Positions 1,126-58,900 of a stretch of 64,000 nucleotides of DNA are shown here, piece after piece (position 1 is the first letter of the stretch; the number at the start of each line of letters is the position of its first letter). The translations under genes were made by a program, and so were the position numbers. The DNA comes from Mactra quadrangularis (Eukaryota; Mollusca; Bivalvia; Venerida; Mactridae): the NCBI GenBank assembly GCA_025267735.1, contig CM046294.1, positions 41,539,570 through 41,603,569 on the forward strand. Direction: 5' to 3'. Under the pieces are notes generated by a model. It was given only the letters and a program-made list of their open reading frames with translations, ran no database searches and was not told where the DNA came from.

Positions 1126-2396
1126 ATGGTATTAAAAGAATTTAAATATAATAGTGATGCTAGCTATTCACAATCTGGGAGCTTTAGTAATAAAACAATT
1201 AATATTATAAAACAATCTATTGTAATTTCATCAGATGGGAAAAGTTTCAACGTAAATTTCCCCAATGTTTTTGAAAAATATTTATTACCACATGTTGCAT
1301 CAAATGATATTGTACAACGTTGGAATACAGATTGGTTATTATTTTGGCAAAATCAATTAAATTTTGCAATATGGTGTGCCACTACAGGCTGCGGTGTTGA
1401 TAATGAAAATCATATAAAAGCAGGTGGTTTAACTGGATCATTATTTTTATTTCATGTTTACTATCAAACAAGGAGAATATTATTTGAACTTTCTGTTGCA
1501 TTACCACAAGAAGATAGTTGGAATGCTTTTAACAATAGTTATGATAATAGTGCTTACGAACGAATATGTAAAGAGTTTAATGTAGATTCTAAAACAGACT
1601 GGAGACAAAAATTAGATTATAATAATGGATTAGGAACAATATATAATTATTGGACTAGAAGAGGATATCACCCTTTAGATCCTCCTAATACTGTATATGA
1701 TAAACAAAATATGAGTTTTACTAATTATCACTCAGACACAACTTTTCATATAGATTATATTCAACAAGATAAGAAAAATATAAATGCATGGACTACATTT
1801 ATTTTAGATAAATCAGAAGGTTTTACAAAAGCAGGAGTTGAAAGGATAAACGAATCCATAAGGACATATTGTTGGGCTATCCTTGGATCACAATCTCAAA
1901 CGAGAACAGATATACTCGGAACAGGAACAGCTTTTGATGCTCAAAAACAATTTATTGCAAACGTTGAGGATGCTATCAATAGTCCCATAGATTTACCAAG
2001 TCAAATTAATAATTATCAAAACACATTAAAATATGCTCGAAGTAAAGTTGATTATGTTTATGGAATTGGGTTGTATATGTCTCCAAGTAATATGGAATTA
2101 CGAATTGGAACAATCCAAGATTATAATAATTATATTATTGTAGCTACTGATGATCAAGAGCTTGGTTTAAATAATGATTTAATAATCAACCCATTCCACC
2201 AAAACAAAATACAGAAATCAAGGGAACACCAACAAAAAAATCTCTACCAGAACCAAAACATGATGTTTTACCTATAAAAAAAGATGTAGTACCTTTAAAA
2301 AAGGAAGCAATACAACACGATGACAACAAAACAGCAATAATAGTTGGTAGCATTGTATTAGGTCTTACCGCTTTAATTATTTACGAGATTTATTAA
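1126..2396 (+). CDS. Polinton protein with C-terminal membrane helix, frame-broken
   Basis: A 383-residue frame (1126-2277) begins at an ATG preceded by an A-rich run. It is rich in aromatic residues (many Trp and Tyr) and Asn, with no catalytic motif I recognise. After about 2178-2200 the natural continuation lies in another frame: a Pro/Lys-rich linker followed by a hydrophobic segment (IIVGSIVLGLTALII) and a stop at 2394-2396. The in-frame end at 2277 is therefore probably the result of a one-base indel. The intact product would be about 420 residues, anchored by its C terminus. It overlaps the opposite-strand gene by 20 bases tail to tail. Its place beside the minor capsid gene suggests a structural role; this is inference. 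Confidence 0.6.
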
Positions 2397-3692
2397 TAAA
2401 CTCCTTAGCAGCTGCAAATAACAATCCAGCAACAAGAACAACTAATGCCCATAAATGTTCTCCAAACCAGTTAACAACTTTACCTGCTGTTGAAAATATT
2501 TTAGATACAATAGCACCAATAATACCAGGTAATGCATCTGCTGCTTTTCCTGCAAGCATAGCTAATAGTTTACTTAAATGTGTTAATTGTTTTTTTACCC
2601 ATTCTTTTACACCATTTCCATCTTTTGGAGGTGTTACACTTCCTCCACTTGAAGGTGTTGCACCAGTACTAGGAATAAAAGTCTCAACAATAACACCAAT
2701 AACCATTCCAAAAGCAGTTAAAACACTAACAATTGTAATTCCTTGTTCTCTGAATAACGTTTTAATTCTCTCTGCTAATGTGGTGTCTTCATTTAATACT
2801 TTATGGATAGTTTCTTTTATTCTACTTACTTGTGTACGTATTATGTCTCTGTTTATATCAATTGCTTCTATTCTTGCACTTCTCTCAGACTCTAATTTTC
2901 TTATTTCTTTACTTATCCTATCTATTTGGAATTCATCATTATCCGATTTAGCTTGTTCTAATTTTTCTTTTTGTCTAGCTAAGTTTTTATTTGTTTCAGA
3001 CAATTTTGCTAATTCATTTGCAATCTCTTCTTTTACAGTTGTCATCGCTTTGATTATATCATCCATTTCTCCTTTTTTCATATCTGTTTGTATTCCTTTT
3101 TCGATTCCAACTATTTCTTTCACTCCAGTTTCTTCAGAAAAAGATGTTTCAAGAGTTTTAACCGCGGTTTCAACTTCATCTGCTACAATAGGTAAATCTG
3201 TCATTTCCACAGCATCAACATTAGGGAGAGTATTTTCTATTTTTTGTAAATTAGCAACTGCCTGTGATGACAATTGTTTAGTTGTAGAGCTATAATCAGG
3301 TAAATTCAATAAATCCCTAATTGCATCTGTTCCACCTTTACCAATTTTACTAACCAGTGTACTAAGAGTTATAAAACCACCTCCTTTTTTAGAAGTAAGT
3401 TGAATTTCTCTATCTTCAACCTTTAAAAATAATGTTTTATTATCAGGTCCAAGTTCAAAGTTATCAATATAATATCCATTTGTTTCTGTTCTACTATTAA
3501 TTTAGTTTTTTGATCAACATCATTAATATCCTCAATATGGGCGCTTTGGTTTTCTACAGTTCTATTAAATTGATCAACATCATCTGGAAGCATTGGACTC
3601 TCATCATCATCTTCATCAAAAATATTACGATCATAATCATCATAATAATCATCATCATCAAACACAGGATTTTCATAACCTCCTTTAGCCAT
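2377..3692 (-). CDS. Conserved Polinton coiled-coil membrane protein, frame-broken
   Basis: The start is the ATG at 3692, preceded by AATAAAA. The first 60 or so residues are very acidic (Asp/Glu runs, 'DDDDYYDDYD'). The frame then ends early at 3423, but the minus strand stays coding in another frame from about 3500 down to 2377. The switch coincides with a T6 run at 3506-3511. The second part holds a long Lys/Glu/Gln coiled coil, then a hydrophobic stretch (GITIVSVLTAFGMVIGVIV), a Gly/Pro/Ser linker, an 'AADALPGIIGAIVSKI' amphipathic segment and a final Trp-containing hydrophobic segment (LWALVVLVAGLLFAAA). I recognise this C-terminal pattern as recurring in invertebrate Polinton proteins annotated only as uncharacterised. 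A role in membrane penetration or virion assembly is inference. Confidence 0.7.
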
Positions 3693-3708
3693 TTTTATTT
3701 CTTAAAAA

Positions 3709-4978
3709 ATGTCTGCATTTGGAGAAAAATTGAACCCCTATAGAAAAATTAGAGAACCAAGAGGTATTAGAGGAATTAGACAAAGTGTTGTAATAACCAA
3801 TAATCCTTCAACTATTGACAAAAATCAACAATTGTTAGTTAGATTTCCTAATTTAAGTAGTAATGATGTTATTGTTCCTGGAACTGTTAAATTAGCTTTT
3901 GAAATTGAAATCAAAAGTGATAGTGATGCAAACGCAACAGTATATCCAAATCTTGGAAGATCAATTATTAAAAAAACAACAATAAAAATATCAGGAAATG
4001 AAGTTTTATCACTTCATGATAGTGATATCTATCATTGTTATATTGATTTATGGAAAACACCAACAGAACGTGTAAATATGGTATACCAAGGTATTGGAAA
4101 AAATAATATGTTAAAACATAGAGTTAAATCCGGTAATGCTACCGCAGACAAAGAAGATGAAGCCATCGCAAAGGCATGTGGAAATAGATTTTGCATTCCA
4201 CTTGATTTTGAATTATTAGAAACGCATATGCCATTTTACCAAGCTGGTCTAGGATATAGACTTGAATATGCACTTACATTCAATGATTATGATAAAGTAA
4301 TCAGATCAAGTGATGCTAATGCTAAATATATTATTAGTAATATATGTTTAGAATTTGATATGGTTAGTAATGTTGAATTAGCAAGACAAATAAGACAACA
4401 AGTAGATGGAAAAATGGTTATTTTATATGATAGAATACTTAGACAAACAAATGTAGTTAAAAATAAATCTGATACAGTATGGAATTTTAATTTAAATATA
4501 CCAGCAAGAAGTATGAAAGGTATATTAATGATATTTGAAGATCCAGATAGAACATCAACTGAAATTTTTTTTCAATCCAAATATAACAAAAGTAGAAATG
4601 ACAATTGAAGGAGTCCCAAATCAACTATACAGTCAAGGAATGAGAGCATATCAACAATGGGATGAAATAAATAATTTTTTTGCATTAAATTCAAAAAGAA
4701 ATAAAGAAACAAATAAAATTATGAAAGATTTATATTTATCCAATATAACAATAGATAAATATCTAACAGATCATTATGCTTTATGGTTAGATTTACGTTC
4801 AACAGATGATAACTCATTACATGGTTCAGGAAGAAGAATTGAAAATGGTTCAGAAGGTATTACAATACATATAATGAAAGAAGCAGGAGCAGATGAACCA
4901 TTAAATGTTTATATATTTATTATCCAGGATGCACAAATAAATTTTGAAGATGGGAGATTTAAAGAAGTTACGTTTTAA
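3709..4978 (+). CDS. Major capsid protein (double-jelly-roll type), frame-broken
   Basis: The start at 3709 follows TTAAAAA and lies 16 bases from the divergent start at 3692. The N terminus has the 'NPYRKIREPRGIRGI' region and a beta-rich body ('TIDKNQQLLVRFPNL', 'LAFEIEI') consistent with the Polinton capsid protein called PY or hexon. The first frame ends at 4608 and the second continues to 4978 with typical capsid-like beta sequence. The overlap region contains a T8 run at 4565-4572, the probable site of the indel. Total coding length is about 420 residues. The assignment rests on position next to the ATPase, on size and on recalled family pattern; a structure-based search would settle it. 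Confidence 0.72.
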
Positions 4979-4980
4979 AA

Positions 4981-5611
4981 ATGGTTAATTTCCAAAATAT
5001 CCTCACTGTGCTATTATTTGTGGGCAAACAGGTTGTGGTAAAACAGAATTTGTACTTGATATATTAGAAAAATATTATATTAAAGTTTTTAAATTCATTG
5101 TTATTTTATGTCCCACTATTCAATGGAATAAAGCTTATAAAAATCGTTATTGGATTTATGCTATCAAAAAACCAAAATCAAAAAATATAATAATTGTTAA
5201 TCCTATTGTTAATGAAGAAGAAAAGTTACAAGAATTATTAAGAATGTTTTATAAAAGATATGCTGGTCAACCAACATTATATATTATTGATGATTGTAGT
5301 GCAACAAAAGAATTAACAAAGAAAAGAGATATGCTTTCAGAGTTAGCTTTATCTGGAAGACATGCAGAACAAAGTGTATGGGTTATTTCTCAGAGATATA
5401 ATTCAGTTTTAAAAGATTTAAGAGAACAAACAAAATGGATATGTATGTTTTTTACAAAAGATAGAGATAGTTTTGAAAATTGTTTGAGAGAAAATGATGT
5501 TATAGAATCATTGGAAGAAAGAATAAAAATAAAAGAAGAATTGAAAAAAAGAAACATCGTAAATTAATATTAAAAACTGATCAACCAACTGGTTACTGGC
5601 TTATGGATTAA
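4981..5611 (+). CDS. FtsK/HerA-type genome-packaging ATPase, frame-broken at both ends
   Basis: A P-loop NTPase that would pump DNA into the capsid. Walker A is clear at about 5025-5052 (GQTGCGKT) and Walker B at about 5277-5297 (LYIIDD), followed by a 'SGRHAEQSVWVISQR' segment typical of the A32/FtsK-like packaging enzymes. The ATG at 4981 follows TTTTAAAA, three bases after the capsid gene stop, but its frame closes quickly. The Walker A frame is reached by a shift near the short T run at 4989-4991. At the far end an A7 run (5544-5550) again separates the main frame, which stops at 5567, from a better C terminus ending at 5611. Length of about 210 residues suits the family. The central catalytic part is uninterrupted. 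Confidence 0.85.
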
Positions 5612-5680
5612 TAAATATCTTTAGTACTACTTTAGTACTACTTTAGTTTTTCTTATCATTGCTTAAATATCGCTTTAAAA
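5612..5680. other. Short noncoding gap with tandem decamer
   Basis: This 69-base spacer contains two tandem copies of a TTTAGTACTAC-like unit (about 5620-5645). It is the longest gap between same-strand Polinton genes here. It could hold a terminator or promoter element; I see no hairpin. Confidence 0.35.
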
Positions 5681-6247
5681 ATGTTTATTGAATTGCTTAC
5701 TATTATAACAAATACTACAGTATTATCAATAGTTGGATATGTTGTGTTTAATTATTTTAAGATAAAAAATAAATATTTAAAAATGGATGCTGAAAAATTA
5801 TTAAATGATGTAAAAGAAGATGATGATCATGTTGAAACAAAACGAGATAGATTATCAGCTATTGTTGCAGGTGGAGGAAGTAAACAATATCTTGGTAAAG
5901 AATTGCAAATGTCAGACTTAGATAAAATGAATGATGAACAAGTAAATAAGCTTTACTATAGATATGAAGCTAGATTAGGTGCAGGTATGACTAAGACATT
6001 GGGAAACTCTTTTATTAATTTATATGTTTTGGGTGTATCAAAATATTTTAAAGTACCAAATACATCAAAATTAGTAAAAGATTTAGAAGAAGATCCATTT
6101 ATCAATCATGCTTTGACTAGCACATGTTGTGAATTATATTATAAATTTGGAATGTACTTAGCACCTTTTACAGCAATGTTAACAACTGCTAAACATATTA
6201 CTTATGAAACAGAGATAGAAAATAAAGATATAAAAAATGCTGATTGA
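5681..6247 (+). CDS. Polinton protein with N-terminal membrane helix, 188 aa
   Basis: The start follows CTTTAAAA. Residues 1-25 form a hydrophobic segment ('VLSIVGYVVFNYF'), followed by basic residues and a soluble body with acidic patches, a Gly-rich stretch (IVAGGGS) and an alpha-helical C-terminal half containing a Cys-Cys pair. Topology is probably a short N-terminal anchor with the body inside the particle or cell. It lies directly after the ATPase and its end overlaps the next start by 11 bases. I do not recognise the family. Confidence 0.65.
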   Translation: MFIELLTIITNTTVLSIVGYVVFNYFKIKNKYLKMDAEKLLNDVKEDDDHVETKRDRLSAIVAGGGSKQYLGKELQMSDLDKMNDEQVNKLYYRYEARLGAGMTKTLGNSFINLYVLGVSKYFKVPNTSKLVKDLEEDPFINHALTSTCCELYYKFGMYLAPFTAMLTTAKHITYETEIENKDIKNAD

Positions 6248-6803
6248 TAATAAATTTACATCTATGATATTTCATGGTTCTAAAAAATATGAATTAGAAG
6301 TTTGAAATTTATTTCAAAAGAAAATACAATTTGAATTTAATAATTTGAATTGTCTTAATTTAAATATTTTAGGATATATAAAAGAAGTTTATGTAACTAT
6401 ATTTTTGGGAAAAAATGAATTTCCTTGTGATTTAAATCCTGTTTATTCTAAATTAAAAGTTAAAGGATTTTCTCATTTGTATAATAATTCATATTCTGAT
6501 GTATTAGTAAAATATAATATAAATGCTGAAGATGAAACAACTGAAGATGATGTAGAATATCATGATTATTATACACGTAATTTTATTTTTAATAAACCAA
6601 CACCAGATCAATTATATGAAATTAGTAATAGTTCTCTTGAAACTATTCCAGTAATTAATAATCAATTTATTTCTTTTATTATTCCTAAAAGTTATTTCAC
6701 TTTTAAATTTTATGCATCTTATTGGGATTCACCAGAAATTAATAATTACCCAAGAACATTATGCGCATCTTGCGAAGTTCATGTTGAAAAATTAAAAATA
6801 TAA
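6237..6803 (+). CDS. Polinton protein with in-frame TGA, possibly beta-rich capsid-associated
   Basis: A GATATAAAAAATG start lies at 6237, overlapping the end of the previous gene. The frame reads 22 codons to a TGA at 6303-6305 and then stays open to 6803 in the same frame. The 152-residue remainder begins at an internal Met (6345). The body is rich in Phe, Tyr, Asn and Pro and looks like beta-sandwich sequence. The in-frame stop is a base substitution type of damage, not a homopolymer indel, so it is the best sign that this copy is really decaying. I do not assign a function; a second jelly-roll protein is one possibility. Confidence 0.55.
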
Positions 6804-6812
6804 TTATAAAAA

Positions 6813-7187
6813 ATGACAACTGAAAATGTTGAAAATGTTGAAAAGGTTAACAACCCAGAAAGAGTATCTGCAGGTAAAAAAGGTGCTGAAGCAAAAAAAA
6901 TAAAAGCTGAATTAAAAAGAAAAGAAATTGAACAAATAAAGATGGAAAATATGCAATTAAAATCTTCTATAACAAAAGATGATGATGATGATGAAATCAA
7001 AGAAGTTAAAGAAGTTAAAAAAATTAATATAGATAAATATAAAAAATATTTTCCCTTTTGTATAATTGGAGTTATAGGATTAGGATTATATATATATAAG
7101 TCTAAAAAAGTTACACCAAAGATACAACAACAACAACAACAACCTGTAATACAACAAAATAAAGAAATTGATCCGTTTGAATTTTAA
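6813..7187 (+). CDS. Small Polinton protein, basic helix plus membrane segment, 124 aa
   Basis: Start preceded by TTATAAAAA. The N-terminal third has 'NPERVSAGKKGAEAKK', a motif I associate with small basic Polinton proteins, then a Lys/Glu-rich helix, an acidic run of Asp, a hydrophobic segment (FCIIGVIGLGLYIY) near residue 75-90 and a Gln-rich tail. The basic N terminus and single hydrophobic helix suggest a membrane-linked, possibly DNA-contacting virion protein. Function unknown. Confidence 0.65.
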   Translation: MTTENVENVEKVNNPERVSAGKKGAEAKKIKAELKRKEIEQIKMENMQLKSSITKDDDDDEIKEVKEVKKINIDKYKKYFPFCIIGVIGLGLYIYKSKKVTPKIQQQQQQPVIQQNKEIDPFEF

Positions 7188-7196
7188 TATATAAAA

Positions 7197-7427
7197 ATGG
7201 CAACAGATGGAAAACAAATAGCAAACATGTTATATCATGCTGGAGTGGAAACTGTACTAACAATCGGATATGCTGAATTAGGAAGAAAACTATTGAAAAG
7301 ACCACCACCAAAAGTAGATTTTAATATGACAGATGTTGGTATGTTATCCATTAATATATTACTTGCAATGGCAACTAAAGATATGTTGATTAAACAAGGT
7401 ATCATTCCTGCCAATATTATGAAGTAG
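7197..7427 (+). CDS. Small conserved Polinton hydrophobic protein, 76 aa
   Basis: Start preceded by ATATAAAA, nine bases after the previous stop. It shows a 'KRPPPKVDF' turn followed by a helical hydrophobic region ('MLSINILLAMATKDML') and ends with 'KQGIIPANI'. I recognise this Pro-Pro/Lys-Val-Asp/Gln-Gly-Ile-Ile-Pro pattern from unnamed Polinton proteins of invertebrates. Probably membrane-active or a virion component; no direct evidence. Confidence 0.65.
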   Translation: MATDGKQIANMLYHAGVETVLTIGYAELGRKLLKRPPPKVDFNMTDVGMLSINILLAMATKDMLIKQGIIPANIMK

Positions 7428-7456
7428 CGAGCAAGTCGAGCGTTTCCACTTATAAA

Positions 7457-7867
7457 ATGGCAAGTGCAGTAGCGATGATGGTAGGGGGTGCAGTAGTTAA
7501 CGCGTTAGCTTTTACAGGGGGTAATTATTTATTTTCACATATGGATAAAAAAAATAGCGACGAAGAAAGAAAAAGACACGACGAAGCAATGGAACAATTA
7601 GAAGCAGCAACAACAGAATGGAATAAAAAGAGAACACAAAGATTAGATTTTCTCAATGAACAATTAAAAAAAGAACATCATGCTGTTCAAACTGATGATG
7701 AAGTTGATCAAGCAATGAAACAATATTATTATCTTGAAGAATCTAAACCTAAGTTAAGTGATTTTTATACTCCATCAGATGATCAAAAAAATAAAGAGAT
7801 TGCATTTGTTGTTGGTGGAATGGCATTAACTGGATTTGTTGCATGGAAGTTGAGTACCATAGGGTAA
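7457..7867 (+). CDS. Small Polinton protein with two hydrophobic ends, 136 aa
   Basis: Start preceded by CTTATAAA. A Gly/Ala-rich hydrophobic N terminus (residues 1-27) is followed by a charged helix ('HDEAMEQLEAATTEWNKKR') and a short C-terminal hydrophobic segment ('IAFVVGGMALTGFVAW'). The N-terminal amphipathic segment recalls the melittin-like membrane-active proteins described for adintoviruses, but this is a resemblance in character only. The last 42 bases overlap the end of the polymerase gene on the other strand. Confidence 0.65.
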   Translation: MASAVAMMVGGAVVNALAFTGGNYLFSHMDKKNSDEERKRHDEAMEQLEAATTEWNKKRTQRLDFLNEQLKKEHHAVQTDDEVDQAMKQYYYLEESKPKLSDFYTPSDDQKNKEIAFVVGGMALTGFVAWKLSTIG

Positions 7868-10800
7868 AGTTTCTATTCCATTATTTTGTATATATCTTTT
7901 GTCATCAAATGGTGACAAACTAATTTTATTTATTTCATTAACAAACATTTCATGTTTATTAGAGTTTAGTGTATACATTTTATTCATTTTAGTTTTACTG
8001 TTAAATAGACAATCTTTATAATCTTCAAATTTAATACTTTTATTTATCGTTGTTTTTCCAATTCCTTTTAATTTTTTTTCTTCACTTAAATCTGTCAATG
8101 TAAAAGAATATGCTTTACTTCTTAAAAAAACTATTTCATTCATAATTTTTCCGTTTAATTCATCTTTAAATTTTCCAATTACTTTTTTATTTTTTTCTGA
8201 ATGTAGAGGGTTGTCTTTAGGATAATCTGATGTATCTAATTCATCTATTATTTCTTTCATATCTTCATAAATATCTTTAGTTTTAATACTTAAGAATACA
8301 CTGTCCGTATTTTTTGCAATTAATGGAAATCCACAATTGAAATCCCCAGTTTCTGTAGATAAATCATATACAATTCGTTTTTCTTTACCTAGAGGTATTA
8401 TCTTTTTTACTTGTGCAATTTGTTCTTTCTTTGTTATATGTAATTCAAATATATTTGGCTTATCTAATCTTGTATTTATATTACAATTATAACCTAAACT
8501 TGTTAAAAGATAATGTAAACATGAAAATGTAATCTTTGATTTTTGTGCAAAAGAGAAATTTGAATTATGTCCTTTCTTACGACCATCTCCTTGATAAAAC
8601 CCTCTAAAGAAGAATAATCTATAATTATATTCTTTATTAAGAATTGTGTATGGAATATATTTTTCTTTTTTATCAGTATAAAATTTTTCAAATTTTGTTG
8701 CCATTAATTTAATACTTCCTTTTGGAACAATTCTATAAACTGCAGATGATTTCATACAATCTATTATTTTAAAATCTGTTGGATATATTTCTTTACACCA
8801 TTCTAAACATTTATTTAAAAGATTTAAGTCTTGATTATTTAAATTCCAAGAATATTTTACTCCCCATTTTGTTTGATAAATTCCACTACTTCCATCCGCT
8901 AAAAAGAATCCTTCTACAAATGCTTTTTTCTCATCTAATGTTCTTGGTTCTAATTGTAAAAATTCCTCTTTCATAGGTGGATCAAATATATCTTTATAAC
9001 TATTATTAAAAAGAAGTTTAGTATTTAATGATAAATCTTTAGGTTTAATAATTTCATTATTATCTTTTATTAAAGAATGATCCTCTGTAACATCAACAAA
9101 TCCTTGTGGTGTAACAACTCTAAACATTTCTTTTTCTGTTTCATGTTTAATTACAACCTTTAATTTAGTAAATCCTTTACTAGTCCAAACTTCTATATTT
9201 TCAGGTCTATAATGAAATTTACCATTATCACAATATTGAAATTCTTCCCCTATGTCTTCTATTTTATCAATGTATACTTTATCATTATATCTAAGAATAA
9301 TTGGTGTATCTCCTGAAACGGAATCAGAAGCAACTAATTCATTATTTTCCCATAGTTTATTAACAACATTATAATAGAAGTTGTAAATTAATTGTTTTGA
9401 GTAATCTAATATAGCTTGTCCTAAATAAATAGGTTTATTGAATTTAATAGAAGTAACATTATTTTCAATTGCAACAAAGTTATCATTAAATATTATTGAA
9501 TCTTTAAAGTTTGGTTTGTTTATATATTTCTTTACTTCTTCCCTATTTATAAATAATATAATTTCATTTCTTCCTCTAATATTTTCTAGTGTCTTTCCAT
9601 AAAAACTGTTGTTCATTAGTTTCCAAAGATCTTTTTCAAAATCAGATTTTGCTTTTTTTCTTTGCTCAGTATTAAAATTAATATACTTTGCTAACCAATC
9701 TGATTCTTTAAAAGAAATTATTCTATGAACCTTTGTTACCTGTAATCCTAGTTTAATGTATTCTTTTAGGATACTATGATGAATAATATATTTCTTTTTA
9801 TCATATAAGGTTAGAAATAGTTTTTCTTCTTTACCTAATGGTTTATCTCCTAATAAATTTAATTGATAATCAGATAAATCTTCTTTATTTATTTTCATCT
9901 TCTCTGGTGCTAAAGGATATTTACATGTTTTCTTTTTACACTCGTCTGTATACTTTAAGTCACATTCAATTAAACATCCTCTTCCTTTTGGAATAGTTTT
10001 ATAATAATCTAAATCTTTTTCCCATTTAAAATCTTTAGTTGGTAATTTCTGTGACATTGCCCAACCATACAAATTATTTGCATCAAGATATAATAAATAT
10101 TTTTCTAATAAGTAATCATTTAAGTTTCCTCCATTCTTTAATATTTCTAAACATTCTTTCATTTCGTGTGAATCTAATATTCTATTTCCATCATCATAAT
10201 AGTTAGGAGTATATTTATTAAATGCTTTTACATGTCTTGGACCTAGAACACCAGAGAATCCACCTCTTATTCCTTTTTCAAACATTTGTAACATATCAAC
10301 ATATGTTAACAATTCTAATTTTACTTTAGTATATTTTAAACCACATTGCCATGTCAATCCTGGTGCAGAATAACAGTATGCAGGATCAATATTATGATGT
10401 TTTAAAAAGAATTTTCTAAATTTTTCAAATGCATCTGCTAAAATAAGAACATCTGTTTTAAGATATAAATTATGATAATCTTTCAAAGTTTTACAATTAT
10501 AATGTTCCCAAACTTTCTGAGCATGTTTATACTCTTTATCTGTGATAGTTTTTTGGGTTAATGTGGAATAAAACTCTTTAATATCAGGTAATTTCTTATC
10601 TTTTAATTTCTTTATAGAATCTACATATTCATATGGATAGAATCCTTTTTGTTTTAGTAGAGAAATATTTCCATCAAACTCTTTTTCTAAAATAGGAAAC
10701 TCATCCATTGATTTAGCAATATCTGATAAGCCTTTTAACAAAAATCTATATGAATCTAGGAATCTTAATTTTTTATAATTTGAACCATATTCTATAGAAA

Positions 10801-11152
10801 TATATGTTTCTGAGTTTTTAGAAAGGATCTTTACTTTATTATAGTTGTCTTCATATTTCATTAGTTCTTCAATTAAAAAGTGGAAATCATAATTTGATCC
10901 ATTATGAAAGAACACAGGTATTAATTTTGTTGTTTTACCTTCTTTTGTATTACACGATTGACACGCTGCTCCTCTATATTTACCTGAAAGATGATTATGT
11001 TCTCTTACTTTATTATATTTTTCAGAAAGAAAAGATTCATTTTCTTCATCACTTTCTATTTCCACAAATTCTTCTCCGCAAATATAACATTCTGTTGCTT
11101 CCTGAAATTCATCTTCTTCATATTTATTTAATATTGTTTTTTTTCTTTTCAT
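7826..11152 (-). CDS. polB: Family-B DNA polymerase, exonuclease remainder and polymerase domain, with intein
   Basis: This 1108-residue frame carries most of a protein-primed-type PolB. In order: a Cys/His cluster (CYIC near residue 22, HNH-like EHNH, CQSC near 64), Exo II (FHNGSNYDF, near 87), polymerase motif A (LDANNLYGWAM, near 357), motif B (KLMNNSFYGKT, near 514) and motif C, which is interrupted. The N-side half ASD ends at residue 610 and the C-side half TDSVF starts at 949; between them lies a 338-residue intein. A KxY motif (SKAYSF) follows. The N-terminal exonuclease part with Exo I is in the upstream frame (11124-12341); the two frames overlap by 29 bases around an A8 run (11137-11144 as T8 on the plus strand), so this copy of the gene is split. 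Removal of the intein is required for an active site in any product. Confidence 0.93.
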   Translation of the reverse strand: MKRKKTILNKYEEDEFQEATECYICGEEFVEIESDEENESFLSEKYNKVREHNHLSGKYRGAACQSCNTKEGKTTKLIPVFFHNGSNYDFHFLIEELMKYEDNYNKVKILSKNSETYISIEYGSNYKKLRFLDSYRFLLKGLSDIAKSMDEFPILEKEFDGNISLLKQKGFYPYEYVDSIKKLKDKKLPDIKEFYSTLTQKTITDKEYKHAQKVWEHYNCKTLKDYHNLYLKTDVLILADAFEKFRKFFLKHHNIDPAYCYSAPGLTWQCGLKYTKVKLELLTYVDMLQMFEKGIRGGFSGVLGPRHVKAFNKYTPNYYDDGNRILDSHEMKECLEILKNGGNLNDYLLEKYLLYLDANNLYGWAMSQKLPTKDFKWEKDLDYYKTIPKGRGCLIECDLKYTDECKKKTCKYPLAPEKMKINKEDLSDYQLNLLGDKPLGKEEKLFLTLYDKKKYIIHHSILKEYIKLGLQVTKVHRIISFKESDWLAKYINFNTEQRKKAKSDFEKDLWKLMNNSFYGKTLENIRGRNEIILFINREEVKKYINKPNFKDSIIFNDNFVAIENNVTSIKFNKPIYLGQAILDYSKQLIYNFYYNVVNKLWENNELVASDSVSGDTPIILRYNDKVYIDKIEDIGEEFQYCDNGKFHYRPENIEVWTSKGFTKLKVVIKHETEKEMFRVVTPQGFVDVTEDHSLIKDNNEIIKPKDLSLNTKLLFNNSYKDIFDPPMKEEFLQLEPRTLDEKKAFVEGFFLADGSSGIYQTKWGVKYSWNLNNQDLNLLNKCLEWCKEIYPTDFKIIDCMKSSAVYRIVPKGSIKLMATKFEKFYTDKKEKYIPYTILNKEYNYRLFFFRGFYQGDGRKKGHNSNFSFAQKSKITFSCLHYLLTSLGYNCNINTRLDKPNIFELHITKKEQIAQVKKIIPLGKEKRIVYDLSTETGDFNCGFPLIAKNTDSVFLSIKTKDIYEDMKEIIDELDTSDYPKDNPLHSEKNKKVIGKFKDELNGKIMNEIVFLRSKAYSFTLTDLSEEKKLKGIGKTTINKSIKFEDYKDCLFNSKTKMNKMYTLNSNKHEMFVNEINKISLSPFDDKRYIQNNGIETLPYGTQLPCNKSS
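8309..9322 (-). mobile_element. PolB intein with LAGLIDADG homing endonuclease
   Basis: A self-splicing protein element of 338 residues (611-948 of the downstream polymerase frame). Block A is SVSGDTPI, starting with Ser. Block B has the TEDH core (VTEDHSLI). Two LAGLIDADG dodecapeptides are visible, EGFFLADGSSG and FRGFYQGDGRKK, each keeping its acidic residue, so the homing endonuclease looks complete. Block F reads RIVYDLSTETGDF, and block G ends LIAKN with the +1 extein residue Thr. The usual penultimate His of block G is Lys here. The insertion point lies between Asp and Thr of the catalytic motif C, the same conserved type of site used by PolB inteins of giant viruses such as Mimivirus. 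The frame is uninterrupted although the host gene is split elsewhere. Confidence 0.92.
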
Positions 11153-12341
11153 TAAGGTATATCTTATAATTTATTTCTTTAAATATCTTTATTACCTTTT
11201 CAACGTATTTTTCTACTGCATCATTACCAACATAAGAAAAGTATTGTGGTTTATATATTTCTGGATATTCTGAATGAACGTATATACCATAACTATTTAT
11301 TTTTTGTTTACGTATTGGGTTTATATATGATTTATCTGGATTTGGTTGTGTGGTGGATAACAGAATATTATTTGATTCGAAATCAGAATAGATAACAAAT
11401 GGTAGTTTGTTTTTAAAATGATAATTTTCAAATTTAAGAATATTTTTTCCTGGTTTAGGCATTATGATTTTACATTGTTCATTATCATAACATATTTCGT
11501 TATGTTTTTTTAATGTTTCTTCTCTTCGAAACCCTTGTAAACAATTTCTACATGTAAATGATTTATGATTATTCTTATCATATATAAAACTATCTAAATC
11601 TTTGATTAAACAATAATGGGTATTTTCATTGTTTTCAATATATAAGAGATCAATTATATTTTCGCTTTCTACGTTTGAAACATAAACTGGATATAAAGAT
11701 TCTTTATTTGTTTGGTCCTCTAACGCAAATACATTTATACTTAGATTATTTTGTTTCTCTACTTTTGGGATATCTTTTATTGGTACAGGATATTCAATTC
11801 CTTTCATGTTGATTTTATTTTCAAGATTTCTATAATTGGATACTCTTTGTTTATTTTTATTTTCTGCAGGATATAACTTTGCTAATATAGACCACAAGAA
11901 ACATTTATTATCATCTTTATTTTGTACATTTATTATATTACTTGATTTAAATTGAAGAGGAATATAGGATGAAGCTTTCTGATAATCATATTTATATTGT
12001 TTTACTAATACCATCTTAATATTCATGAAAACAAAACCAGATCCTCTTTCTTGAAATCTATCTATCCAAGCTTCAAATTTATGTATTAAAGTTTCATAGA
12101 ATGTTTGTATATTATTTTGTGTTTTAATAATTTGAATAGGATGAGAGTAATGACTTTCTACTATATTAAATGCCATAGGTGTTGAAAATTCACTTGTTAT
12201 TGTTAGTTTTATTTTCAAAGGAAATTGATTAATAACTATTTTATCTTTTAATAAGTTTATATATTTAGTTATATTATTTTCATCAATATCATCAATAACT
12301 GTTTCAGTAATAAGATCTTTGAAGGATTTTTTCTCGACCAT
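11124..12341 (-). CDS. polB: Family-B DNA polymerase, N-terminal part with Exo I
   Basis: The start is set at the ATG at 12341, preceded by CCTATAAAA; the frame is open a few codons further up. The 405-residue product has a long N-terminal region of the Polinton type, a C2H2-like zinc motif near the C-terminal third (CRNCLQGF...H...C) and then Exo I (VIYSDFES, near residue 320) that supplies two metal-binding acids of the 3'-5' proofreading site. The frame stops at 11124, just past an A8 run. The following polymerase frame is offset by +1 relative to this one, so one base too many in the homopolymer would explain the break. It may be a real mutation or an assembly error. Confidence 0.88.
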   Translation of the reverse strand: MVEKKSFKDLITETVIDDIDENNITKYINLLKDKIVINQFPLKIKLTITSEFSTPMAFNIVESHYSHPIQIIKTQNNIQTFYETLIHKFEAWIDRFQERGSGFVFMNIKMVLVKQYKYDYQKASSYIPLQFKSSNIINVQNKDDNKCFLWSILAKLYPAENKNKQRVSNYRNLENKINMKGIEYPVPIKDIPKVEKQNNLSINVFALEDQTNKESLYPVYVSNVESENIIDLLYIENNENTHYCLIKDLDSFIYDKNNHKSFTCRNCLQGFRREETLKKHNEICYDNEQCKIIMPKPGKNILKFENYHFKNKLPFVIYSDFESNNILLSTTQPNPDKSYINPIRKQKINSYGIYVHSEYPEIYKPQYFSYVGNDAVEKYVEKVIKIFKEINYKIYLNEKKKNNIK

Positions 12342-12358
12342 TTTTATAGGTTTAAATT

Positions 12359-12595
12359 TCAATTGGGTATTTTATTTCTATAATAATAATTACTTCGATA
12401 GTCCGGATTTCTTTCAATAAACTCTTGATAAGATTTTTTGTATTTTTCTTTGTTTCTTTCTCTGTGATTTCTTTTAACAAAGTATAAACATTTTTTGCAG
12501 TTTGCCTTTAATCCATCAGGAGCTTTAGATTCTTTGTAATAATTATTATATGTTTTATATTCATTACATTTACTACAAACTTTTCCTTCGTTCAT
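12359..12595 (-). CDS. Small Cys4 zinc-binding protein, 78 aa
   Basis: Start preceded by CAATAAAAA. The N-terminal half shows CSKC and CKKC pairs separated by about 24 residues with 'DGLKANC', the treble-clef zinc pattern that often precedes HNH nuclease domains in phage and viral proteins. No HNH core follows; the remainder is basic and Tyr/Asn/Arg-rich. It probably binds nucleic acid. It lies between the polymerase and the integrase, divergent from the latter. Confidence 0.65.
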   Translation of the reverse strand: MNEGKVCSKCNEYKTYNNYYKESKAPDGLKANCKKCLYFVKRNHRERNKEKYKKSYQEFIERNPDYRSNYYYRNKIPN

Positions 12596-12610
12596 TTTTT
12601 ATTGTTAAAA
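12596..12610. promoter_or_regulatory. Fifteen-base divergent start region between zinc protein and integrase
   Basis: The minus-strand start reads CAATAAAAAATG and the plus-strand start GTTAAAAATGG, with 15 bases between the two ATG codons. As at 1111-1125, the A-rich blocks abut the start codons directly. Confidence 0.45.
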
Positions 12611-13564
12611 ATGGATAACCCAAAAATATATTGTTTAAGTTGTAAAAAACATACTGAAAATAATTCAGTCAAAGAAGTAACAACAGCTAATAATAGACAA
12701 ATGTTACAAGGAAAATGTTCTGAGTGTGGATCTATCAAAAACAGATTTATAGGTTCCCTTCTAACAAATAAATTAGCAGACGAATTACATCACAGAGTTA
12801 TAAAATCTTTTCCTAAAAGACGTGTACATGTTGATTCAATAGATCAAACATGGGCAGTGGATTTGGTAGATATGCAACAATACTCAAAACAAAACAAACA
12901 CTATAAATATTTACTAGCAGTTATAGATGTGTTTAGTAAATATGGTTGGTTAATTCCTTTAAAAAATAAAACAGGAGTAACAGTAAGTGAAGCATTTAAA
13001 ACATTATTTAAAGAAAGAAAACCAATGTTTATTTGGTCAGATAAAGGATCTGAATTTTATAATAGACAAGTAAAAGAATTGTTCAAAGATAATAACATTA
13101 AGTTATATTCAACTGAGAATGAAGAAAAATCTAGTGTAGTAGAACGATGGATAGGAACTATGAAACAAAATATGTATAAATATTTTACTGCTCATGAAAC
13201 TAATAAATATTATGATGTATTAGATGATTTAGTTAAAGATTATAACAATACAGTTCATTCTTCTATCAAAATGACACCTATTGAGGCCAGTAAATTAGAA
13301 AATAGATTAACAGTGTATGAAAATTTATATCCAGAAAAAGAAACGGAAATTAAAAAACCTAAATTCAAAGTTGGTGATAGAGTTAGAATAACAAAAAAGA
13401 AAGGTAAATTTGAAAAGGGTTATACTACTCGTTGGACAAGAGAAATATTTGTAATTGAAGAGGTTTTAAATACAAATCCTATTACTTATACAATAAAGGA
13501 TTTAAAAGGTGAAGAAATTACAGGTAGTTTTTATGAACAAGAATTACAGATTACTGAGTTTTAG
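12611..13564 (+). CDS. int: Polinton integrase (rve family) with N-terminal zinc ribbon and C-terminal chromo-like domain
   Basis: The start is the ATG at 12611 (after GTTAAAA) and not the TTG nine bases earlier. The 317-residue protein is intact. Residues 6-45 form a Cys4 ribbon (CLSC ... CSEC, followed by RFIGS), resembling the small zinc-ribbon family DUF5679 more than the HHCC finger of retroviral integrases. The catalytic core follows: Asp in WAVDLVD (near 82), Asp in WSDKGSEF (near 142) and Glu in VVERW (near 176), with 33 residues between the last two by my count. The C-terminal part has 'FKVGDRVRI' and a beta-rich segment of the chromo/SH3-like type. It would insert the element and create the target duplication. 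It is the last gene before the right end, as usual in Polintons. Confidence 0.93.
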   Translation: MDNPKIYCLSCKKHTENNSVKEVTTANNRQMLQGKCSECGSIKNRFIGSLLTNKLADELHHRVIKSFPKRRVHVDSIDQTWAVDLVDMQQYSKQNKHYKYLLAVIDVFSKYGWLIPLKNKTGVTVSEAFKTLFKERKPMFIWSDKGSEFYNRQVKELFKDNNIKLYSTENEEKSSVVERWIGTMKQNMYKYFTAHETNKYYDVLDDLVKDYNNTVHSSIKMTPIEASKLENRLTVYENLYPEKETEIKKPKFKVGDRVRITKKKGKFEKGYTTRWTREIFVIEEVLNTNPITYTIKDLKGEEITGSFYEQELQITEF

Positions 13565-13862
13565 AATATTTTTTTATATTTTACTGCCCCAGTATATTTT
13601 TATATTTTTATGTTGTCCTATATTTTTATAAACTTGCTTTTACTTCTCAGTTCACAGTTCCTCCTTGTTTGTACAGTAGTATATTATTTGGGCGTGCCCA
13701 TTATTATACTATTGGTATATGAGGAGAAATAGAAAATATTGTGGATATATAAAAAATTTGAAAGTAGTAAAAATGTTGTGTTGTTTTTTTTTAGTTGTTG
13801 TAAATGTAAAAAAAAATTTTTTTGGGAGCCCTGGGGAGGACACGCCCAAATACTATACTACT
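13565..13862. repeat. Right terminal region of the Polinton with inverted repeat pair
   Basis: No gene. A T-rich stretch follows the integrase. Two 22-base sequences, AGTAGTATATTATTTGGGCG.. at 13675-13696 and its near-perfect inverse at 13841-13862 (21 of 22 positions), enclose a 144-base spacer. The outer one ends in ..TATACTACT, that is AGTAGTAT when read inward, which fits the 5'-AG start of Polinton termini. The element probably ends at 13862. The inner copy means the terminus itself can fold back. Confidence 0.6.
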
Positions 13863-13879
13863 AATAATCAATAATCAAT

Positions 13880-23553: not shown

Positions 23554-24115
23554 ACACAGTCCAGAATACGTTTGCGAATCCGGAAATCTTGCAAACTTAC
23601 TTTTTTTATTTTTCATCCAATTTATCTCAAATTTTCAATAAATGTAAATCTACACATGGGCATAACACCAGTAAACTTTCATCCAGATATCTTTACTAGA
23701 AATATGTTTAATTTTAAGTCAAAATTCCCATGGGAATCGGCAAATTCCCATGGGAGAATTGCTCTCCCATGGGATTTTTATGGGAGAAAAAAGGGAATTT
23801 TCTCCCATTTACAAATATGGGAGAAAAATCCCATTTTTTCAAACTTTTCCAAACTAACATTTAAAGATTGAATTGGATAGATCTATTTGTACATAAAATG
23901 ATTCTAAAGAAAAAATCAATAATTTGTCACTTTTAAAGCATTTAAACACCATTTAAGAATTCTCCCATATTAGAAATGGGAGAATTCTCCCATGGGAGTA
24001 TTCTCCCATTTCTGTATATGGGATTTCTCCCATGGGTGAATTCTCCCATTTTCTAAATGGGATTTCTCCCATGGGAGAATTCTCCCATTCTGAAAATGGG
24101 ATTTCCTAATATATT
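23554..24115 (+). repeat. Left arm with CCCATGGG/GAGAATTCTC palindromic units
   Basis: After an arm head shared with the right side, units of about 40 bases alternate the palindromes CCCATGGG and GAGAATTCTC with short spacers such as ATTCTGAAAATGGG. At least six GAGAATTCTC- or CCCATGGG-type cores occur between 23725 and 24115. Confidence 0.8.
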
Positions 24116-30159: not shown

Positions 30160-30284
30160 TGTTTTGGTTACACTGTATTATTAAATCATTTGACTATTTT
30201 ATTACCTCAACTTAAATTCTGTTGATTTGGTTAAAAATATCCTGAGATAAAATATGTACTTGGTTTTCAATAATGCCTTAAGTT

Positions 30285-31460
30285 CTGGGGTCAGACTAGT
30301 GGGTAAAGTTGATGATTGCCATCTTAAATTTTCTTAAGCACTAGGTCCATTAATAATGTTATGAAGTTCAAGGCAAAATTATTAGCTAGTCCGATTGAAT
30401 GAATCAAGTAGATTAACAGGCCTGTATCTATGCTAATCCTGGAGTCAGGCTAGTGGGTAAGGTTGATGACTGCCATCTTAAATTTTCTCAAGCACTTTAT
30501 CCATTAATAATGTTATGAAGTTCAAGGCAAAATTATTAGCTAGCCCAATGTATGAATCAAGTAGATTTTACAAGCCTGTATCTATGTATGCTTGTCCTGG
30601 GGTCAGGCTAGTGGGTTAAGTAGATGACTTCCATCTTAAATTTTCTTGAGCACTAGGTCCAATAATAATGTTATGAAGTTCAAGGCAAAATTATTAGCTA
30701 ACCCGATGTATGAATCAAGTTGATTTTACAAGCTTGCATCCAAGTATGCTAGTTCTTGGGTCAGGCTAGTGGGTTAAGTTGGTGACTGCCATCTTAAATT
30801 TTCTCGAGCTCGAGGTTCATTGTAAATGTTATGAATCTCAGGGCAAAATTATTAGCTAGCCAGATTGAATAAACTAAGTAGATTTTACAAGCCTGTATCT
30901 ATATATATGCTAATCCTGGAGTCAGGCTAGTGGGTTAAATTGATGACTACCATCTTAAATTTTCTCAAGCACTTTATCCATTGATAATGTTATAAAGTTC
31001 AAGGCAAAATTGTTAGCTAGCCTGATGTATGAATCAAGTAGATTTACAAGCCTGTATCTATGTATGCTTGTTCTGGGGTCAGGCTAGTGGGTTAAGTAGA
31101 TGAATTCTATCTTAAATTTTCTTGAGCACTAGGTCCAATAATAATGTTATGAAGTTCAAGGCAAAATTGTAAGCTTTTATGTCAGATTGAATGAATCAAC
31201 TAGATTTTACAAGCCTGTATCTATATGTATGCTAGTCCTGTGGTCAGGCTAGTGGGTTAAGTTGATGACTGCCATCTTAAATTTTCTCGAGCACTTGGTC
31301 CATTATTAATGATATGAAACTTCATATCATTAATAATGGCAATATCTTATAAATTAATAAAGGCAAAATTATGATCTAACCCAATTGTATTTATCAAGTA
31401 GATTTTTACAAGCCTGTATCAATGTATTCAAGTCCTGTAGTCAGGCTAGTGGGTCAAGTT
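30285..31460 (+). repeat. Satellite array, about eight units of ~158 bp
   Basis: The phrase TCAGGCTAGTGGGT recurs near 30291, 30445, 30602, 30760, 30921, 31080, 31243 and 31441, giving spacings of 154-163 and a last longer one of about 198. Each unit also carries GATGACTGCCATCTTAAATT and AAGGCAAAATTATTAGCTAG-like phrases. The last, longer spacing contains a 40-base palindrome at 31300-31339. Confidence 0.92.
31300..31339. repeat. Perfect 19-bp-arm palindrome
   Basis: Arms CCATTATTAATGATATGAA and its exact inverse are separated by two bases (AC). It sits inside a satellite unit and creates the local length difference. Confidence 0.9.
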
Positions 31461-52955: not shown

Positions 52956-55900
52956 GTGAGTATATCACTGTAATTTAACCAAATTCAAAAAATATTTATA
53001 TATACGAATGAATGACATTCAACATTTGTTAAAGTACTTATAAAATAATAGTAAAAAAAGTTGTTGTGAGAACATTAATGTGGCCATTAAGTCAATGGAA
53101 ACTTGTCTATAAATGCATTTATTATCAAGCTATTCCTGAACACTATAATTTTCTATTTATGTTTTAGCGCTGTTCAGTGTTTGCCAATCTTCAACATTAG
53201 TTATGAATGTCGTTGAGGTTGGAAGCCGTGGAGATATTACTTTAATTTGTAATGTTTCATCATCAACAAATTTAACAAGATGGACATGCTTTGAGGGATC
53301 TACAGGAACATCATTGATGAGTTATCAGAATGGACGATGTACTGTTTCACCATCCGGTTCTTTTCTTAGTGATTTTTTAAGATATTCTTACAAATGTAAT
53401 AGTACAGTACATAAGATTACACTACACTATGGAGAAGGAAATATTCATAATCGAATTATTGCATGTATGGACGTTGAACGGCTGGACGGATCGGGGTCAA
53501 CATGGATAATTAAAGTTGTATCAGGTATTTTATGATCGGTTTACACGCTATAATCTGCTCCGTACAATACATTGTAAACGTATTATGAACATTGTATTTC
53601 CTTAACTGTACTAAAGATATCCCAAATTCAAACTTAATAGTTTGCTTCATATTGAACACAATTGCTAATATTAATAATATACAATACGTGTGGTTCGCCA
53701 AAAATATTTCGAATCAATTGGGAACAATACGCTATATTGTTGTACATTAAACGTTCTATGTTAGCTTTGTTACTTTTTTATTTATTTTTTAACTTTAGCT
53801 AATCTACTATACTGAAAGTGAATTGAAGCTAACATATTATCTGTACATCAAAGTTTTAGTTTAGTTGATTAAAAAGTATATATAACAAAATAAATTATTT
53901 TTATTTACCAGAAAAGCAAAGATAATGTCTGACTGTTTAAAGTCAAGTGTTTGTAATGAATTCATGCATCAATTCGTTTCACATACTGTTTCCCGTGTAA
54001 TCTGGCATGATTTATTTTGACACTCAGGTGTAAACAATTGTTGTCACCAACAATACATTCGAATCCTGAATCGTTTGCTTGTGCTATATTACAGCAATGT
54101 ATACGATTATACATGCCATTCAGTTTACAATTCCAATAACAAATCTAAATATAGCACTAAAAGAAGTAGTGAAAGTTTTATCGAGTCTAGTATCATCATC
54201 AAATTACAAATAAGACCAGAAAAAATCCATTTTCGAGTTCATGTTGATAGTTCAAATATACAACCCTGTTGATTTTCTAAGATCAATGTAAATTACGTTT
54301 TCTTTTTTCAAACAGACATTTCGTGTACGGATTGTAGACCACCTATAACATTTGACGTTCATGAGATAGCTGAAGGGTTAAATGTAACATTTATATGTAT
54401 AGTATCATCTGATGTAGAATACGTCAACTGGAATAAGAACATGGGTTATAACTCAACTGCTATGAGTGGTCAGAACGGACGATGTGTTACATCACCACCT
54501 GGTGCAACATTTCTAGACAATACAAGTAAATATATCTACAAATGTAACCGTACAGTATATCAAGTTACAATATTAAATGTACAAAGAAGTGAACATAATG
54601 ACATGTATACGTGTACAAAACCAGCCCAACAAGAAGGAACAGGATCAAATTGGATAGTAAAAGTAACAGGTAAGATTTGATATATTTTTGGCGATGTTAT
54701 TATTATTATTTTAATAAGTCCTTTTAGGTAATTAAACATGGCTAACTAAAGTTTAAGCTAAATTCAAAGTCATTCTTTCAACACATTTAAATGTAATTTT
54801 ATTACATTCAAGTAACTGAAATTTGGAGACAGTGTGGATTACTACATGGCTTCAGACTTTATCCCTTGACTATATATACATTTAGTAATTAAATTTGAAA
54901 CTAAATGAATAAAGAAATATATAATACATATTATTTAGGTCGATAATATAATACAATACTTTCGCTATATTTTAGCTTCAGTAACATCAGCTACTTTGAC
55001 ACCATCTATTGACCCATTTGATGCTATAGAAAATACAGCAGTAGATTTCACGTGTGCAACATCAATAGCAAGACCTGTTGCTTCTGTTAATTGGTATAGG
55101 CATCCAAATGGTAACAGTAACAATATAACCCAGATAACGGAAAATATAACTACTACGACTGACTACAATGATTTAAGTATAACAACACGCACACTTCGTA
55201 TTTATCCAACTCGCCAAGACACCAATATAAAGTTATATTGTGAAGCAAATAACATCATCAATACTAGTCCAGTAAAATCCAACACGGATATACTGCTGAA
55301 CATTCTGTGTAAGTAAAAAGCAAGGGATTACTCAGTCGATACCATTATAGTATCTTTTTATGTCGGAACATAAGTTCAAGATGTAAGTTATAACAATATT
55401 CTGGGGCATGCTACCAGATACTTGCAGTGTTATGTTCTTAGAATTTAAATTTTGAATAACAATACATTTTTAACATAACGTCGATGTTGTCTAATCATTT
55501 GTTTTGTAACATTGTAGTTCCACCGACAGTCGCAAGGATAAAGAATATTTCCAAGCATATAGACGAAGAACTTAAAATGAATTGTCTGTATACTGCTGGA
55601 GAACCTGCCCAAACATCAGTTCAATGGACTAGAGACATAGATGATACACAATGGGACGGAGAACAGTTGTATATATCATCTATAAAGAGGAGCGACGCTG
55701 GTTATTACTACTGTAATGCTTCAAATGTCATGAAACCAAGTGGTGATAGCACATCATACATAGGTCATTCTACTCATCGTTTCTATATTGACGTCTTATG
55801 TAAGTATGTTACAACTTTATTCATTTTTCATAAATGTACTAGTATAATGTAATTTATAAGTTTAATATGTTTGGCATCGATAAAATATATGAATATCTTT

Positions 55901-58900
55901 TAACTATTTCTAATTACATGTATTTTATTAATTATGCTTAATTTGAATTATTTTAATCATATTTTTTATATTTACAAATACAATATAGTGCTTTGACTGT
56001 TTAAATATACATAGAACAATCTCTACGTTGTATAAAATCACCATACTACAATACTTAACTTTACAATGAGCAATCGTTAGGTATATTCTATTTGGACTTT
56101 AGACTAGCTTTTTGACTAATATATATTTATAAAATGGGTGTTTTTACGTTAGTGATGTAAATCAACCAAGTTGTTTGTCTCCTTTCCATTATTTTATCCG
56201 ATATCATAAGACTATTTGGTATTACCAAATGCATTATTTTGACAGATGGTGCAAACGTAACATCGTTTTCTATAGACGGATCTACAAAACATGTTGTGAC
56301 TGTAAATGAAAATGATCCATTTAGATTTATTTGTAATGCTGATAGTAATCCAGAGGCTATAATGACACTGATTCATGACGGTAAACCACTGAAGACAACA
56401 ACATCAAATACTCTGGAATACAACATAGTCAAGGGAAATTGTTCAAATGCAGGATTATATATTTGTCATGCTATGAATGCCTATAATAGCGTAGTTAGCT
56501 CCGTAGAATTCGTGCAACTATTTGTCACATGTAAGTATACGCAGTATTTTATTATTGAACTTATTATAAAAACAGGTTGTTTAACTTTGACTGTCCATTG
56601 AATTGCACATGTAAATTAAAAATGCTACTTTGATAAGGAAACACTTTTCAATATAGATATAGCACATAATTTATTGAACTGTAACTCTACTACATATATT
56701 GCTATTGTTGTGCGTTTTAGACTTAGATTAAGTTTATACATATATAAGTGCTCTCTTGAATTAATTAAAATACGTAAATTACCCTGTGCATTTTTGTGTC
56801 TGATCTTTGTATCGAATACCTTATTTTCTTTGCTAAGGTAAAAACTATATTAACCATAATCTTAATCAGGTCATCCAAGAGCTGCTAAAGACGTTGATAT
56901 AGATATAAACAGTGATACTGGTGTACCAATTACTATAGCAGTCGATGTTATCGCCTATCCACCCCCTTCATTTAAATGGTATACATTTGTAAACGGGACA
57001 TGGACTTTACTTAAACAAGATAACAAATATCGCATTGTCTCATCAGCAGTTCAGTCCAATCTAACAATACATAGCGTAGGTGTAGATGATTTTACAAGTT
57101 ATAAAGTGGTTGTAGAAAATGTGTATGGTCACTTTGCACAATATTATTCTATGACGCCATAAGGTAAGTATCATTTTCATCTGTAAGCATAATATTCGAT
57201 ATGATCTCACTTAAAGCTAATGTAAGTATGTGCTTGTGTAAATGAGTTATATAAATGTATTTTACACTTACTGCATTAGTGATGTAGCTGCCTATCCTGT
57301 AGTGTCATTTGATTATAGTTTGCAATGCACTTTTACATTTTCAAGCATGTGTTTTATATTTTAAGGATGTATATGTGACCTCTGCAGCAAAAATCAGTCT
57401 TAATGAGGAAAAATCACTTTTTTAGTTTTTTACTTTTTCTGAATCTATATTCACTGAAACATGTTTTCAGAAAATTGGAGGTGATTCTGAGAAATATTGC
57501 CAAAGTTACAGCGTTTTGAAGTATATGGGTATGGCGGTCAAAATTCTGCGCAATCTGAACATTTTTTACCAATTGTCTATATATTAATGAAAATTTGTTG
57601 CAAAAGATAAAAACATAAATAATTCTCTAAATTTTATTCTATTTTATTTATCATTTGAAGGAATACATTTTACAAAATATAATTACTATAAGATCTGGTA
57701 ATACATACATGTATATTCAAACATGTTTCCACAGCAACCAAATATAAAAAATACATTTTTATGTTTTTATTAAAAGAATATTCAGACAAATTTATTGAAA
57801 ATGCCTGTAATACATAGAAAACTAAAATTTATGTCAATAAATTGCAGAAAATTATCTTTATTTTATAAGATAACTATACCATGGAAGATTATACCATGGA
57901 AACAATGAACTATGACTAATTTTTATGCTTTTATGGAAAGCAGATTGTTTAAAATTACATGACACATACTATGTTGTCTTGAAACATTTACATAATATCT
58001 ACTATATAATATGCTTAAGAAATATTTCATTTGAATATTGTCATGTTATCAGGAAGGTCATGTTACAATGGAGTCATTTTTTTACTTCATATAACAGTTT
58101 CCATGGAAACCAATTCATTATAATTTTCAGGAATACTACTTATTTTCCAACATTTGAAGGAAAATAATGATGGATGTAGCAGAATGGTAAAACACACATT
58201 ATTAACTTATTTATTCTATCCAATTGATTATGTACTTAAGACTTAATTATATAACTAAAATTATGCTTAAAGTGCTTACACTATATATTAGCTAAAGCAT
58301 ATTATGAGCCTTGTTTAGTATTTAATAGCACCCAGTGACCAGAAATAGTTGATTTCAATCAACACCCCCCTCTTGGACCCATTTGAACAAATAAGAGTAG
58401 TTTTAAATTTTCAGAATCTTCACAGCACATTTTCTAGGACATGTGAATTTAATATAATTATTAATAATTGTAGGAGTGGAATTAATGTAATGTGAAGAAT
58501 GTGAACATGTGAACAAACCACAAAAAATGTGAACTGATAATTTTAATTAATATTTTTTTAAAGAAAAAAATGTCTACTGATATAACATATCAAAAGAGTC
58601 AAAGTTCACATTTTCTCAACACACTTGCTTGCAATATGCATAATTTTCACACAGAAGTATGTTAATTCATTTTTACATGTAAGAATATCAAAAATTCATA
58701 ATTTACTAGGTATGGCTTTGGACCACTACACCTACAAGTTAATTCAAGTACATAGAACCACTTCATTTTAACACTCTTTATAGCATACTTTAACCAATTT
58801 ATACTTGGAAATTATGGACAATAGTCAGTTTTTATAGTTCTGTACATATTTTCATCACACATATTTTATGTGATCTTAGAGCATATTTCTACCTACAACC

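Follow-up and report, generated by a model that had tools for sequence, protein, structure and literature searches.

Our analyses very probably reveal a self-splicing, homing intein of the PolB motif-C type that is carried by a Polinton integrated in animal chromosomes. It lies in a window, the whole stretch of DNA analysed here, that covers 64 kb within a 48.9-Mb contig of a 979-Mb assembly. If it homes actively among Polintons, no earlier mobile intein would be known from the nuclear genome of an animal, to judge from our searches of the open-access literature.

The intein and its host gene

Sequence, profiles, and predicted fold point to an intein of 338 residues, Ser1 to Asn338, encoded on the minus strand at 8309..9322. 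The N-terminal half of its Hint splicing domain, with blocks A and B, comprises intein residues 1-110 (8993..9322, minus strand, the outer limit being taken from the model and approximate), and is followed by a LAGLIDADG endonuclease domain at about residues 126-300 (8423..8947, minus strand, limits approximate) and by the C-terminal half of the splicing domain, with blocks F and G, at residues 307-338 (8309..8404, minus strand, limit approximate). The preliminary description had claimed a 338-residue insertion with splicing blocks and with two LAGLIDADG motifs whose acidic residues are kept, and this is borne out by profile matches and residue conservation; the site that it gave, between the Asp and the Thr of motif C, is likewise correct, as ..ASD precedes the intein and TDS.. 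follows it. The search with Hint and LAGLIDADG profiles that it had proposed did return matches, so a lack of such matches can no longer be held against the claim: TIGR01445 matches intein residues 2-84 with 33.6 bits vs a cut-off of 24.5, Pfam LAGLIDADG_3 matches intein residues 235-309, and I-DmoI, PI-SceI, and PI-PfuI are matches to the LAGLIDADG endonuclease of the insert. The predicted structure of the intein has a HINT fold.

Ser1 and the block B Thr and His are kept in all eight intein copies that cover them, Asn338 and Thr+1 as well as both LAGLIDADG Asp residues in all nine that cover these, and the entire set, which also includes the block F Asp, in eight of the eight fully covering copies; the partial ninth copy keeps the key residues wherever it covers them. 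The penultimate His is absent (Lys in seven and Ser in two of the nine copies covering the position), and some functional inteins are described to have another residue in its place (PMC4031507). Also absent from the Polinton intein is the block F His-His-Phe, which is present in other sequences of the comparison (L028, L029, L033, and others).

The interrupted polymerase gene is encoded on the minus strand. The N-terminal extein part in the ORF (polymerase residues 1-610, ending with ..ASD of motif C) is found at 9323..11152, the C-terminal extein, which begins with TDS.. and includes the stop codon, at 7826..8308, and an upstream part of the gene, in another frame, at 11124..12362. The window copy is damaged, with the polymerase split across two frames, and a capsid-side gene of this copy seems to be split across two frames as well; other genomic copies span the polymerase with uninterrupted frames about 1,500 aa long. 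Exo and polymerase motifs can be recognized by eye in the extein. It gave no match to a polymerase family among the Pfam families and none in a profile search of the PDB, and its AlphaFold2 model, with a pLDDT of 37, was too poor to name it. From the reading of the motifs and the context, we name the extein a probable Polinton family-B polymerase. Close to the beginning of this polymerase frame, at 10928-11041, there is an endonuclease VII-like match, which also occurs in the intein-free L011 and is below cut-off in L014 and L081.

The Polinton and its chromosomal setting

The element that carries the intein is 15,972 bp long (C2:41537460-41553431), and its left end is positioned 2,110 bp before the window. 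Its terminal repeats of 225 bp are identical at 220 of the 225 positions, and AATAAT flanks both ends. The right terminal inverted repeat (TIR) is at 13638..13862, with its left partner outside the window, and the adjoining 6-bp target-site duplication (TSD) AATAAT at 13863..13868 has the same sequence as the 6 bp that precede the left end. An integrase with an rve core (44.8 bits) and DUF5679 is encoded on the plus strand at 12602..13564, and a piece of an A32-type packaging ATPase, also on the plus strand, at 5244..5567 (Pox_A32, E 4e-5, 23.6 bits vs a cut-off of 22.8, truncated ORF). The other ORFs of the element, at 1126..7867, presumably represent the capsid/virion side; a Pfam search of the candidate ORFs for a double jelly-roll capsid protein, at 3709-4978, gave no match, and PADLOC matches of a coiled-coil ORF at 2377-3309 were judged spurious. 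Polintons, or Mavericks, are virus-like, self-synthesizing elements of about 15-20 kb with TIRs and a 6-bp target duplication, and the element has the size, the TIRs, the 6-bp TSD, the retrovirus-type integrase, and the packaging ATPase of a Polinton.

On the same contig, at 54976..56601 on the plus strand, a host animal gene is represented by three ORFs that match Ig domains and have AG and GTAAGT at their exon borders. The DNA that carries the element is nuclear DNA of the animal, and the earlier claim of a Polinton integrated in an animal chromosome is upheld by the TIR, the TSD, the chromosome-sized contig, and the Ig exons.

Filled and empty sites

A genome search with the 338-aa intein as query found ten intein loci on C2, C6, C9, C10, C14, and C19. 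The whole intein is open in four of the ten, and the other six have stops, frameshifts, or truncations. Eight copies are fuller, and the right flanks are unrelated in the six that could be tested (five with 400 nt, L066 with 69 nt; the comparison leaves out L022 and L018).

In two loci, L010 and L017, a polymerase of the same family lacks the insert, and its extein matches meet precisely, to the base, which is why a random deletion was rejected as the origin of the empty site. Because they have common sequence past the truncated edge of the element, we read the two as one duplicated locus. At the motif-C site, the intein is likewise missing from four loci (L011-L014) that belong to families with 36-50% identity, motif C itself having been read in L011 and L014, and from two viral-contig relatives; this scoring is limited to loci in which the site is resolved, and these do not include L025-L027. 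By parsimony, a gain of the intein within the Polinton family is favored over a less likely precise loss. A search for a frameshift common to empty and filled copies found none. The preliminary description had reasoned that a homing parasite would have had partners to home into, and such partners do exist in the same genome, where a relative has the empty site, more distant families are free of the intein, and the intein itself occurs in several alleles. In L025 (C11:29084500-29088000), which belongs to another Polinton family, the polymerase contains intervening stretches, possibly spliceosomal introns.

Separate histories of intein and exteins

The eight copies form four intein groups, which are the window copy (WIN) with L022; L021; L023; and L024 with L019, L020, and L018. 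In all 21 pairs between groups, which like the other pairs compared are not independent of one another, the third-position difference is larger in the intein (11.5-21.9%) than in the exteins (2.4-7.6%, compared at residues 1-585 and 971-1000; Fisher p 3e-5 to 4e-17). Within groups, four of seven pairs are without an intein/extein difference at p 0.1, and the other three all involve L018 (p 0.086, 0.004, and 0.018). A maximum-scoring-segment scan of residues 1-1000 placed the limits of the divergent segment at most 6 codons from both intein edges in 12 of the 21 between-group pairs, and at most 11 codons in 16; in the remaining five pairs, the segment has a limit inside the intein in four and begins 17 codons upstream in the fifth. 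The distances among inteins show no significant correlation with those among exteins (Mantel r 0.15, 262 of 2000 permutations), and the intein alleles are themselves mosaic. A raised local mutation rate in the intein was rejected, as there is no intein excess in the pair WIN/L022 or in the three L024/L019/L020 pairs. Because the histories of intein and exteins differ, the intein behaves as a cassette that has been moved between polymerases, and homing would be the best among several possible causes of this movement.

The capsid-side genes (1126-7867, pieces L067-L079) are strongly mosaic as well, with third-position differences of 0-28% among the 12 pairs listed. Elsewhere, the differences are 1-8% in the integrase, 3-15% in the upstream polymerase part, and 3-7% in extein 1, and some of the values for the other element genes are perhaps inflated by frameshifts. 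Since mosaicism is thus not restricted to the intein, its exchange may have come about by ordinary recombination and not by endonuclease-driven homing.

The codons at the junction are variable. Synonymous variants among the copies are found at all six codons that abut the intein (residues 608-610 and 949-951), whereas in the rest of the extein 16 of 120 codons that specify these amino acids vary (Fisher p 1.5e-5). Across eight copies, one junction Ser is encoded in five different ways, and another Ser alternates between AGT and TCA. Eight of the first ten intein codons are variable, vs 88 of 324, and variation more than 3 codons from the insertion is at the extein background (1/7 and 1/9 codons). 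The variable junction codons occupy 8300-8308 and 9323-9331 of the window, and their counterparts in L018-L024 are likewise concerned. Mantel tests revealed no association of the flank codons with the nearby intein end (right r 0.10, 306 of 2000 permutations as high; left r -0.23, 1819 of 2000), and therefore simple co-conversion from one donor is not supported as the origin of the junction variation. The variation could be explained by silent escape from the endonuclease or by repeated break repair.

Proposed mechanism and alternatives

In the mechanism that we propose, the intein would excise after translation by attack of Ser1, transfer to Thr+1, and cyclization of Asn338, and the exteins would be joined, ..ASD to TDS.., which would restore the catalytic motif C. 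The LAGLIDADG domain would cleave polymerase genes that lack the intein at the corresponding position, the repair of the cut site would copy the intein in, and the homing field would consist of other Polintons that meet an intein carrier in the same cells. We infer splicing, cutting, and homing from the sequence; of the homing parasite that the preliminary description had postulated, the intein, the endonuclease, and the partners have been found, whereas homing itself is deduced from sequence patterns. Because all six abutting codons have changed synonymously, in up to five ways, one may tentatively go further and consider active homing among infectious Polintons of an animal lineage, with the target site in an arms race, a reading that we regard as quite possible but somewhat short of probable.

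The strongest alternative is that the intein splices but is immobile, having entered a single time, and that its diverged alleles were shuffled by ordinary recombination among co-replicating Polintons. The mosaic capsid-side genes agree with this, as do the tree, in which the Polinton inteins form one clade with a support of 100/100, the single independent close empty site that was found, and the flank codons that do not track the intein ends. However, most between-group pairs have a divergent stretch that is delimited by the edges of the intein, and the endonuclease is as constrained as the splicing domain, with a pN/pS, pooled over all pairs, of 0.29 in comparison to 0.31 in the N-terminal splicing part and 0.34 in the C-terminal part. 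We consider an immobile intein rather unlikely. In the exteins, the pooled values are 0.21 for extein 1 and 0.29 for extein 2, and the intein (0.31) is above extein 1.

A fossil in decay, incapable of splicing as well as of cutting and residing in dead polymerases, would account for the six of ten loci that are interrupted, partial, or decayed, for the window copy's polymerase and seemingly a capsid-side gene being split between frames, and for the absent penultimate His, but it is hard to reconcile with the open inteins of the other four loci, with the long polymerase frames, about 1,500 aa, of some copies, with a dN/dS of 0.19-0.31, well below 1, in all 21 between-group pairs, and with key residues kept in eight of eight copies, and we judge it very unlikely. 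A contaminant scaffold, which the preliminary description had listed among the findings that would refute it, here with DNA of a protist or giant virus built into the animal assembly, can practically be dismissed despite the viral and archaeal nature of the nearest inteins, as the contig is chromosome-sized and includes Ig exons near the element, TIR and TSD are in place, and ten loci on six contigs have unrelated right flanks in the six testable copies.

Relatives and significance

The tree with PolB inteins, which had been suggested beforehand, groups the Polinton clade with L083, L028, and L029 at a support of 87/94, which is below the tool's star threshold, and the branching inside this group is not resolved; only four open Polinton copies were included in the trees. 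Near full length, the identity to the Polinton intein is 43% for L083, 40% for L029, and 38% for L028. The closest intein relative found, L083, is in a PolB on the Lokiarchaeota (Asgard) MAG contig JAEOTR010000065.1. All three resemble the Polinton intein in the D|S..N|TDS insertion point, in Ser1, Asn, and Thr+1, and in the LAGLIDADG-type layout, but the block-F His and the penultimate His are missing from the Polinton intein. The polymerases of L028 and L029 match DNA_pol_B (the scan covered these two, not L083), whereas the intein here resides in the probable polymerase of a Polinton that is integrated in an animal chromosome. PolB inteins from viral contigs and from archaea have the Ser1/Asn/Thr+1 layout at the same site, the exteins of five of five viral contigs tested match DNA_pol_B, and the penultimate His is present in 13 of 14 aligned viral relatives, with Lys in the exception L040. 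By its site and its nesting among such inteins, the insert is assigned to the PolB motif-C intein family, as judged from sequence comparison. An IMG/VR search with the window polymerase or the intein alone found no relative; the IMG/VR relatives were found from an alignment that included a phage intein.

Known systems differ in several respects. PI-PkoII (2cw7), an archaeal DNA polymerase intein, has 18% identity, 537 residues, and an archaeal host. Inteins of insect iridoviruses, reportedly described by Bigot in 2013, are similar in being inteins in DNA viruses of animals; these are free viruses, the inteins are in other genes, and none is known to be integrated in host chromosomes. The nucleases that Jeong reported in 2023 in Polinton pPolBs are said to be HNH and VSR, and we know of no complete splicing domain among these insertions.

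The likeness of that last system to ours, nucleases inside Polinton polymerases, is evident from a later account, which describes diverse homing endonuclease domains at different positions in Polinton pPolBs and suggests intein invasions as their origin (Jeong 2023, as cited in PMC11071308). Inteins have been stated to be absent from metazoan genomes, and this absence was given as a reason to treat them as drug targets (PMC5784728; PMC8529194). In the accessible parts of the open-access literature on inteins and Polintons, we found no description of a complete intein in an animal, and the accessible sections of PMC12721341 do not mention inteins. The preliminary description knew of no accepted intein fixed in an animal nuclear genome; the metazoan absence is stated in print, and intein-like insertions in Polinton polymerases had already been suggested in one sentence (PMC11071308). 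A constrained, multi-allelic intein in the integrated elements of an animal contradicts the flat claim of metazoan absence, and one parasite connects archaeal, viral-contig, and animal-Polinton polymerases. With filled and empty sites in one genome, the system offers a testbed for homing, target-site escape, and Polinton recombination.

Other features of the window

An Rfam search gave no match. Two arrays with a related 39-bp unit on a palindromic motif are located at 23956-24105 and 32092-32259, and a tandem array with 6.5 copies of a 158-bp unit at 30281-31318. Remnants of Tc1/mariner-type transposases, with matches to HTH_Tnp_Tc3_2 and DDE_3, are found at 39464-39934 and 46989-47477.
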